Below are positions 39,767-42,356 of a DNA stretch of 64,000 nt, in pieces (positions within the stretch are counted from its first letter, which is position 1; every line of letters begins with the position of its first letter). Both the position numbers and the translations under genes were made by a program. Under the pieces are notes generated by a model. That model searched no databases. It was not told the DNA's origin and saw only the letters and a list, made by a program, of their open reading frames with translations. The DNA is from an uncultured Spirochaetota bacterium (GTDB lineage: Bacteria > Spirochaetota > UBA4802 > UBA5550), in NCBI GenBank assembly GCA_937872225.1, contig CALMRZ010000028.1, positions 124,001 to 188,000 of the forward strand. The letters are read 5' to 3'.

Positions 39767-40078
39767 GATAGTCCCTCCAGGGAAGTTTTCTTATGGTGAT
39801 GCACTAACGGATACGGGGCAGGCTGTGCTGAAAAAATACGGGATTCTAATTGGTGGATATCTCCCTTTCATGCAAGGTAGGATATCCCCTGAAATGGACC
39901 TGTCAAGCGGAAAACGAGACGTAATTGACCCAGGTCAATGCGCTGTTTTCTTTCCTGTGATACCTGTGTTGCGGTGAAGCTGTTGCCGGACTATCCAGGA
40001 ATCATGATTTTCCGGGCTAAGATCAATATATTCATTTAACAGCGTCATCTATCTATATTAATATAAAAGGAAGGAGTT
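39767..40078. other. 312-base divergent intergenic region
   Basis: Between the leftward RCK_C gene and the rightward oxidase unit. It holds the FNR/DNR-like palindrome at 39924-39939 and a possible -10-like TGATAC at 39958-39963. The final 60 bases before the start are AT-rich. No gene is seen. Confidence 0.5.
39924..39939. promoter_or_regulatory. Perfect FNR/DNR-type palindrome
   Basis: ATTGACCCAGGTCAAT is a perfect 16-base palindrome with 2-base centre. FNR half-sites are TTGAT; DNR and NNR-type NO sensors of the CRP/FNR family bind the close variant TTGAC-N4-GTCAA seen here. Its centre is about 40 bases before a possible start set by TGATAC (39958-39963), near the class II activator position for the oxidase genes. 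Confidence 0.55.
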
Positions 40079-40627
40079 ATGGTGGATTCTAGCTTGGTTC
40101 TTTTCGGACAGACCCTTGCCTATACCCTCTATGCCCTCGCGATCATGGCTGTCATGGGGTGGTTCGGGTACAGGGTAACTAAACAGGGAAAGGGCAGGGA
40201 TATCAAACCCGCGCTCTTTTACACGTTTGTCGGATTCCTGGTCCTGGCCGGGGTGTCGCTGCATATCATCACCCATGAAACAATTCCATGGAAGCCGATG
40301 GATCTTAACCGGTCGGCCATCAAGGCCGATAAGACATTCTCGATCAACATCGCTAACCAGAAATTCATCCTGCCGGCGGAAAAAATGGTGATCAAGAAAG
40401 GGGAAACGGTCCGGTTCAACGTCACGTCGGATGACCTGACCTACGGTTTCGGCCTCTTCCGCACGGATAATTCGATGGTTTTCCAGATGCAGGTGCTGCC
40501 CGGGTATGTGAATGATATTCTCTGGCGCTTCGACAAGGCCGGCGCGTATACCATACGGTCTACAGAGTATTCCGGGCCGAAGGGCATAGGGATGATTGAG
40601 AAGAATGCGGTCGAAGTCGTCGAGTAA
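40079..40627 (+). CDS. Heme-copper oxidase subunit II-like protein without CuA
   Basis: 182 residues. Two N-terminal membrane helices (about 10-30 and 47-65) and a cupredoxin domain (about 85-182). The CuA motif C-x-E-x-C-G-x-x-H-x-x-M aligns with STEYSGPKGIGM (161-172): both Cys are Ser (S161, S165) and the His is Gly (G169), while Glu163 and Met172 remain; the first His ligand region is DDLTYGF. So no CuA centre is possible, as in quinol oxidases. AAGGAAGGAG precedes ATG 40079. Paired with subunit I 45 bases downstream. Confidence 0.82.
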   Translation: MVDSSLVLFGQTLAYTLYALAIMAVMGWFGYRVTKQGKGRDIKPALFYTFVGFLVLAGVSLHIITHETIPWKPMDLNRSAIKADKTFSINIANQKFILPAEKMVIKKGETVRFNVTSDDLTYGFGLFRTDNSMVFQMQVLPGYVNDILWRFDKAGAYTIRSTEYSGPKGIGMIEKNAVEVVE

Positions 40628-40671
40628 GACCGGCCGCCGCATAACTATTACATGTAATAAGGAACGTAACA

Positions 40672-42294
40672 ATGAACTTGATACATACATTCTTAAAAGG
40701 CGAGGAGGGATTGTTCAGGCCTGATTCCCTGACGCCGATGCAGAAAATGACGTTGCGGTTTGTCGTGGTGGGTCTTCTCTATTATGGCCTCGTGGCGCTT
40801 GAGGGCATGATCATGAGAACGTACCTGGTGAAACCCGTGGTTGATCTTATACCTCCCACCCAGTATTACGCGATTTTAACGGCGCACCCGCTGGTTGGGA
40901 TTTTCGGATCGACCTATTCGATCGTGTTCGGCGCATTCCTCTTCCTGGTGCCGTACCTGATGAAGAAGCCCCTCTGGAGCATCAAGATCGGCAACTGGAT
41001 CTGCGGGCTGGTCGGCGGCGGGACCTTCGTGTTCTGGCTTTCCGGCTTCATCACCCATTACGCGCCTCTGTACACGCTCTACTGGCCCCTTCCCGCGGAT
41101 TTCACCCAGTTCAGCCTCTGGGGCGGTATTTTCTTCATTACCGGCATTGCGCTGGTCATGGTGGGGACCGTCCTGTTCGTCATTAACATCTTCAAGACCA
41201 TAACCTACACGCCGGAAGGCATGGCGAAACAGCCCGTGGGAGCGCTCCTCGGATCGGCCCTGGGCCTGAGCGGCTTCAGGAATCTTTTCAGCAAAGACAA
41301 GAAAGAACACCTGGTGTCGCTGCCGGTTGCAGCCATTGCCCGCGGCACCATTGACACGGCCCTCAATTCAGGGATCATCCTTTTTACCGGCGTGCTGATC
41401 CTGGTCTACATGATCGCCGCCGTGTTCGGCGTCAACCTGAAGCATTCCGCTGTCGACGCCCTGCTGTACAAGAACTGGTTCTGGTGGGGCCTTGACCTGA
41501 TCGCGGACGGCCTGGTGCTGATCTTTGTCGCCGGGACCTGGTATCTCCTCGCGACGCTCATAACCGGGAAAAAGCTCTTCATGGAGAACATTGCCCGCGC
41601 GGCTCTCTTCGTTGAGATGGTCGTGTCATGGACCGTCTGGTCGCACCACCTGATGTCTGACCAGGCCCAGCCGGGCATCCTGAAGGTCGTATCGGGCGAA
41701 ATGGTCACGGCCTTTGAGCTCATAACCCAGGGCCTGGCCTTCTTCATAACCCTGGTGACGCTCTGGAGCGCGCGTCCCCTCAGGATGACCAATCCCCTTA
41801 AGTTCCTGCTGGGCGGTCTCCTCGGCTTCGGCCTCGCGGTGCCGGCAGGCATCATCCAGGCGGACCTGGGGCTCAACAGGATCCTTCATAACACCCAGTG
41901 GATCGTGGGCCCCCACGTGCACGTCGCGGTCCTCGTCGGACTGACCATGACGCTTTATTCGGCGGTCTATTATCTCTTCCCGGTCCTCACGAACGGCGCC
42001 AAGCTCTACAGCGAGAAACTGGCGAATGTCCATTTCTGGTGCCACCTTCTCGGCGGCATCGGCATGGGGGCCTTCATGGGCATGGCCGGCCTGCAGGGAA
42101 TGCTGCGGCGGACGATCTATTTTGAAGGGGAGTTCCTTCCTTTTATGATTCTGGCGGCGCTGGCGGGCTCGCTGATCCTCGTTGGCTTTGCCGCTTTCTT
42201 CTTCAACATCGTCATGAGCGTGGGATTGAACGGCGTTATCGGGATTTTCATGCCGTCAAAATTGAAGACGAAAGACCCGCTGCCCGGAAAATAA
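40672..42294 (+). CDS. Divergent heme-copper oxidase catalytic subunit, NO-reductase-like
   Basis: 540 residues, about 12-14 membrane helices. Low-spin heme ligands H72 (TAHPLVG) and H417, high-spin heme ligand H415 (VGPHVHVAV) and the double His of helix VII, H325-H326 (VWSHHLMSD), are present. In helix VI the expected His is Asp: WWGLDLIADG has D275 where cytochrome c NO reductases have WWVVHLWVEG (His, then Glu at the next turn, here D279). The helix VI Tyr cross-linked to His in oxygen reductases is absent. This favours NO reduction or another reaction over proton-pumping O2 reduction. A terminator follows. Confidence 0.82.
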   Translation: MNLIHTFLKGEEGLFRPDSLTPMQKMTLRFVVVGLLYYGLVALEGMIMRTYLVKPVVDLIPPTQYYAILTAHPLVGIFGSTYSIVFGAFLFLVPYLMKKPLWSIKIGNWICGLVGGGTFVFWLSGFITHYAPLYTLYWPLPADFTQFSLWGGIFFITGIALVMVGTVLFVINIFKTITYTPEGMAKQPVGALLGSALGLSGFRNLFSKDKKEHLVSLPVAAIARGTIDTALNSGIILFTGVLILVYMIAAVFGVNLKHSAVDALLYKNWFWWGLDLIADGLVLIFVAGTWYLLATLITGKKLFMENIARAALFVEMVVSWTVWSHHLMSDQAQPGILKVVSGEMVTAFELITQGLAFFITLVTLWSARPLRMTNPLKFLLGGLLGFGLAVPAGIIQADLGLNRILHNTQWIVGPHVHVAVLVGLTMTLYSAVYYLFPVLTNGAKLYSEKLANVHFWCHLLGGIGMGAFMGMAGLQGMLRRTIYFEGEFLPFMILAALAGSLILVGFAAFFFNIVMSVGLNGVIGIFMPSKLKTKDPLPGK

Positions 42295-42322: not shown

Positions 42323-42356
42323 CCCGTTCCCTGCACGACTGGGAACGGGTTTTTTA
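42323..42356 (+). terminator. Rho-independent terminator after the oxidase unit
   Basis: Perfect stem CCCGTTCCC (42323-42331) with GGGAACGGG (42341-42349), 9-base loop, then seven T. Confidence 0.9.

Follow-up and report, generated by a model that had tools for sequence, protein, structure and literature searches.

A predicted gNOR-type nitric oxide reductase operon behind an HcpR-type promoter site in an uncultured Spirochaetota bacterium

Two adjacent genes of an uncultured Spirochaetota bacterium, hereafter norGH, very likely (we would put it at roughly 80%) form an operon for a gNOR-type NO reductase that is probably fed by quinol, placed under HcpR-type control and used to clear NO from nitrite ammonification. 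They lie in a window of 64,000 nucleotides, the whole stretch of DNA that was analysed. The gNOR family was already known; the present analysis adds the family-wide conservation of its unusual active site and the HcpR-type regulatory link. The matter reaches beyond this host, as gNOR genes occur widely, in Bacteroidota and Ignavibacteria as in other lineages, and generic profiles call them cytochrome oxidases. By linking gNOR to nitrite ammonification, the HcpR-type site suggests that N2O may arise from detoxification in a genome without a recognised denitrification nitrite reductase or N2O reductase.

Results

Layout of the operon

The genes for subunit II and subunit I are co-directional, with 44 bases between them (Table 1). 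Since a hairpin with a T run follows subunit I, norGH is probably a two-gene transcript that stops 5' of the glycine-cleavage genes. This hairpin, whose loop is beyond the limit of our pattern scan, was missed by the scan and found by reading the sequence.

Table 1 Features of the norGH region (positions in the window)
Feature	Position	Strand	Description
HcpR-type palindrome TTGACCCAGGTCAA	39925..39938	+	154 bases 5' of the subunit II start; matches the FNR-like HcpR consensus ATTTGACCNNGGTCAAAT
Ribosome-binding site GGAAGGAG of subunit II	40069..40076	+	Sequence reading
norH-like subunit II gene	40079..40627	+	182 aa; two transmembrane helices and a cupredoxin domain without CuA ligands
Lost CuA site, subunit II codons 122-172	40442..40594	+	Y122, S161, S165, G169 for His, Cys, Cys, His; E163, M172 kept
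norG-like subunit I gene	40672..42294	+	540 aa; catalytic subunit of the heme-copper superfamily
Helix VI codons D275 to D279, subunit I	41494..41508	+	Asp for the metal-ligand His; Asp at the Tyr/Glu position
H325-H326, subunit I	41644..41649	+	Helix VII metal-ligand pair
Probable terminator	42323..42355	+	9-bp perfect stem, 9-base loop, six T; sequence reading

Aspartates at the active site of subunit I

Subunit I matches the Pfam family COX1 (E=6.5e-55), and its score lies far under all curated oxidase cut-offs. Its AlphaFold model (mean pLDDT 79.4, pTM 0.84) is of low confidence in helix VI and in the heme-ligand regions; among solved structures it best matches A-type oxidases and bo3, with a TM of about 0.7. 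The active site was aligned with sequences of A-type, bo3, ba3, cbb3, cNOR and qNOR enzymes. All heme ligands and the helix VII pair are retained (H72, H415, H417 and H325, H326), in agreement with the preliminary description. At column 275, the CuB/FeB ligand of helix VI, subunit I has an aspartate (D275) whereas every other sequence aligned has a histidine. Four residues further on, D279 stands where cNOR and qNOR have a glutamate. This residue is a tyrosine in most A- and B-type oxidases, as is also visible in the ctaD, cyoB and ba3 rows of the alignment. In subunit I, the active-site tyrosine of oxygen reductases is found neither at the helix VI position nor at the helix VII position, where S319 aligns with the cbb3 tyrosine. 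The His-to-Asp and Glu-to-Asp changes and the missing cross-linked tyrosine, all proposed from the sequence at the outset, are thus borne out.

D275, D279, H325 and H326 are invariant in 81/81 homologues, and S161, T162, E163 and G166 of subunit II in 74/74 sequences, so these states are not due to chance or to a sequencing error. Other acids of subunit I that are invariant in the family alignment include E44, E349 and D398.

A cupredoxin subunit without CuA

Subunit II has no match to a Pfam domain and only weak ones in the PDB, to CuA/cox2 domains (E~1e-4). Its AlphaFold model (pLDDT 89.5) places a cupredoxin domain after two helices, and matches CuA domains as well as subunit II of ba3 and bo3. 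The serines and the glycine described earlier at CuA ligand positions are indeed present, and Y122 completes the set; of the site, only E163 and M172 are left. The subunit II sequence also contains no heme c motif CXXCH. Because CuA and heme c are both missing, the electron donor is probably the quinol pool. Hence an enzyme first described as quinol- or cytochrome-linked is probably quinol-linked. E44 of subunit I aligns with Asp75 of the bo3 quinol site and is kept in every sequence that covers the position. The remaining bo3 quinol-site residues are not kept in the alignment of subunit I to bo3, so the quinol donor is something that we infer.

A large and uniform family

Scanning GTDB genome contigs gave 80 loci that are 65-85% identical to subunit I. 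Their hosts are mostly uncultured Bacteroidota and Ignavibacteria, with Acidobacteriota, Actinobacteria, a Campylobacterales MAG (L083, 66% identical) and others. The subunit II gene lies directly upstream of subunit I in 75 of the 80 loci. As read from these sequences, the whole family has D275 and D279 and has lost CuA. The earlier suggestion of a possible new subtype is not upheld, since some 80 close homologues share every feature and make up a large uniform family.

In the tree, cNOR/qNOR and cbb3 fall outside the single clade (100/99) that subunit I forms with the sampled relatives. This clade joins the A/B-type oxidases weakly (83/54) and with long branches, so that its deep placement is uncertain. 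Another genome of the host's phylum encodes a divergent heme-copper subunit I (L004, genome G057), which has the longest branch of the tree; its helix VI reads GHSAQQ, with glutamine, the eNOR marker, at +4.

The tree neighbour of the host subunit I is from an Ignavibacteriaceae genome (L020). As a close homologue occurs in 0/296 sampled genomes of the host's phylum, the distribution points to acquisition of norGH by horizontal transfer. No close homologue was found on plasmid records. GC and GC3 of the region are like those of the host; composition thus does not support recent foreign DNA, and any transfer in the host lineage would therefore not be recent.

Several relatives have peculiarities of their own. 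In a Bacteroidales MAG, subunit I is matched in two pieces (L099:10001-11778), possibly through an insertion or duplication near residue 384-401. In several Ignavibacteria, a small membrane protein of ~154 aa with a conserved histidine is encoded directly upstream of gNOR (L033:8864-9328, similarly in L027, L034, L037 and L039) and could be an accessory protein. Two MAGs labelled Bacillota and Bacteroidales (L089 and L090) carry an identical subunit I; probably one label or bin is wrong, the other explanation being recent transfer.

An HcpR-type site upstream of norGH

The palindrome upstream of subunit II is an exact match to the HcpR consensus TTGACCNNGGTCAA. It had been described as a DNR-like site; DNR sites, however, read TTGAT-N4-ATCAA, as against the FNR-like HcpR motif of Table 1 (Rodionov et al. 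2004, 2005). The DNR/FNR reading was rejected, as TTGAT-N4-ATCAA is absent and its loose version occurs at chance level in the window. Among the known members of HcpR regulons in delta-proteobacteria and cyanobacteria are hcp and ferredoxin genes, joined in Synechocystis by norB (Rodionov et al. 2004, 2005).

The whole host genome holds one other exact copy, at 2940-2953 of locus L115 (G000:C4:44500-51500), between divergent nrfHA, encoding cytochrome c nitrite reductase, and a gene with a ferredoxin domain. A copy with one mismatch lies in a divergent hemB/hemC intergenic region (L116, G000:C46:50768-50781). Exact copies also occur elsewhere in the host's family, at nrfHA/ferredoxin (L140, L142), at a ferredoxin homologue (L138), at DUF438-hemerythrin genes (L141, L145), at hemB/hemC (L143, G004:C4:236183-236196) and before hcp (L144; hcp at NCBIfam E=3e-210); L139 is the sole one of L138-L145 with a seemingly unrelated context. 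The names hemB and hemC are our own reading of the proteins, and these sites suggest that heme synthesis may be under NO control in this bacterial family. Total genome-wide counts of the motif are about those of a reversed control, so its weight rests on location. Upstream of the relatives' gNOR genes the motif is not conserved: TTGAY-N4-RTCAA is present in 3/75 entries, two of which are the host genome itself, and a promoter motif common to all gNOR loci was rejected.

A Crp/Fnr gene of the host (L122, G000:C4), with the recognition helix PETFSR, is a candidate regulator of the norGH site. It adjoins a DUF438-hemerythrin gene that has the site TTGACTTGCGTCAA (TTGAC-N4-GTCAA) upstream, at 2328-2341 of the locus. 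The recognition helix of another Crp/Fnr protein (L121) reads PESFSR, and neither protein has an NCBIfam assignment. HcpR proteins that read the FNR-like motif have Ser or Pro before the recognition-helix Glu (PMC1274295). DUF438-hemerythrin genes with an upstream HcpR-type site occur in three genomes (L122, L141, L145), with a PAS domain in L145; their product is a candidate NO sensor or scavenger. Among the relatives, 34 of about 72 loci have an Rrf2-family gene directly upstream of the enzyme; an NsrR identity could not be assigned to these genes. Crp/Fnr and DUF6448 or hemerythrin-like genes are near the enzyme in about 10.

Physiology of the host

Neither NirS, NirK nor NosZ was detected in the host genome. 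Cytochrome bd is present, and the norG-like subunit I is the genome's sole COX1-family gene. An hcp gene was considered and rejected: the only prismane-family match is a CODH-type protein in a CODH/acetyl-CoA synthase gene cluster (L120, G000:C21:22000-33500), and this cluster makes it probable that the host uses the Wood-Ljungdahl pathway.

Discussion

Proposed function

We build the following model on observed sequence features, their family-wide conservation, gene order and motif placement. Subunit I would bind a low-spin heme through H72 and H417 and a high-spin heme through H415. A non-heme metal, probably iron, would be held by H325, H326, the carboxylate of D275 and perhaps that of D279. 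Two molecules of the presumed substrate, NO, would be coupled to N2O at this site, with electrons probably coming from the quinol pool, CuA and heme c being absent from subunit II. An NO-responsive Crp/Fnr regulator of HcpR type would bind the palindrome and induce norGH together with nrfHA, the ferredoxin gene and the hemerythrin gene, and toxic NO arising in this anaerobe during nitrite ammonification by NrfHA would be removed by the norGH enzyme.

Alternative readings

The fold and the tree leave some room for a quinol oxidase that serves at low oxygen, reducing O2 with neither the cross-linked His-Tyr pair nor CuA: subunit I is closest in fold to A-type oxidases and bo3, and its clade joins the A/B-type oxidases, if weakly. 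The active site nevertheless has no tyrosine at helix VI or VII and its helix VI metal histidine is replaced, the promoter motif accompanies nrfHA and, in relatives of the host, hcp, and cytochrome bd is already there for O2, which makes O2 reduction distinctly improbable. An N-oxide-type regulation would also suit a different N-oxide reaction at a metal site rich in carboxylates: dismutation of NO, for instance, or its reduction past N2O. In NOD, the putative NO dismutase, the metal-ligand His is likewise changed, to Asn, and the catalytic Glu to Gln (PMC3413370). Yet NODs belong to the qNOR branch, from which the norGH clade stands apart, and here the substitutions are aspartates; we consider this chemistry unlikely. 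If it did take place at an Asp-ligated, possibly two-carboxylate site, gNOR would stand as a branch of the superfamily with a function of its own.

Could norGH be a new subtype of NO reductase that merely shares gNOR features? The comparison with gNOR was made by description, and the relatives' records are MAGs without gene names. Against this, norGH shows every testable feature listed for gNOR, and its Campylobacterales relative comes from a lineage with reported gNOR, so that such a subtype is very improbable. Since one metal-ligand His and every CuA cysteine have gone, norGH might also be taken for a decayed, non-catalytic relative of heme-copper enzymes. That is scarcely credible, as homologues from many phyla, 65-85% identical, show no variation in the substituting residues, and both open reading frames are intact. 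NO reduction by a gNOR-type enzyme remains our reading: the clade is tight and apart from the oxygen-reducing and the cNOR/qNOR families, and the regulation is of the N-oxide type, both consistent with the NO reductase first suggested for this locus.

Assignment to gNOR

The gNOR family was reportedly proposed by Hemp and Gennis and by Sievert and co-workers in 2008 and revisited by Murali and co-workers in 2024; the helix VI His-to-Asp change is said to be given as a gNOR trait by Hemp and Gennis and by Murali and co-workers. We know of no gNOR that has been purified. The active-site residue is described as Tyr in oxygen reductases, Glu in cNOR/qNOR, Asn in sNOR and CuANOR, Gln in eNOR and Asp in gNOR (PMC8756737, Table A4). 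Carriers of gNOR include Sulfurimonas, Sulfurovum and Persephonella (PMC8756737), and genomes of 'Ca. Methylomirabilis' also have it (PMC6094997). The enzyme is described as two subunits, one of them a cupredoxin, without a conserved proton channel (PMC8756737), contrary to a prediction of proton translocation (PMC6349771). As to such a channel, subunit I lacks the helix VI Tyr but has the invariant acids E44, E349 and D398. It has been equated with norGH and called quinone-oxidising and non-electrogenic (PMC8906906), and is listed among families proposed without biochemical characterisation (PMC11388526). In norGH, D279 is the Asp at +4 from the helix VI ligand, and a separate gene for a cupredoxin subunit II adjoins that for subunit I. 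The gNOR lead offered in the preliminary description is strengthened by this marker, by the lack of CuA in the cupredoxin and by the N-oxide-type regulation. Matched by published markers, with a tree that contains no named gNOR sequences, the norGH family is most likely gNOR.

Comparison with known systems

Although bo3 and A-type oxidases give the best fold match for subunit I, their helix VI His-Tyr pair is absent from it. Oxygen reductases have a Tyr cross-linked to the metal-ligand His, and subunit I has neither that Tyr nor the helix VI His. The subunit II of bo3, like the norH-like one, combines two helices with a CuA-less cupredoxin.

With cNOR and qNOR, subunit I shares an acid four positions past the helix VI ligand, the heme ligands and the helix VII His pair. 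Unlike subunit I, these enzymes keep the helix VI His, giving three His ligands, and have Glu at +4. In addition, cNOR has a heme c subunit and qNOR a fused N-terminal extension, whereas norGH has no CXXCH in subunit II and no extension on the 540-aa subunit I. The +4 residue is Gln in eNOR and Asn in sNOR/CuANOR, in contrast to Asp in 81/81 sequences here. NOD resembles subunit I in that metal-ligand His and catalytic acid are both substituted (PMC3413370), but the protein is of qNOR type and the new residues are Asn and Gln instead of Asp and Asp.

The host motif is identical to the FNR-like HcpR consensus but precedes gNOR and nrfHA, in a genome without an hcp match. For gNOR, the literature cited here makes no mention of an HcpR-type site or of a host genome lacking NirS, NirK and NosZ. 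No difference was found between gNOR and norGH, which share the Asp at +4, the two-subunit operon, the cupredoxin subunit II and the absence of CuA, gNOR being described as quinol-oxidising.
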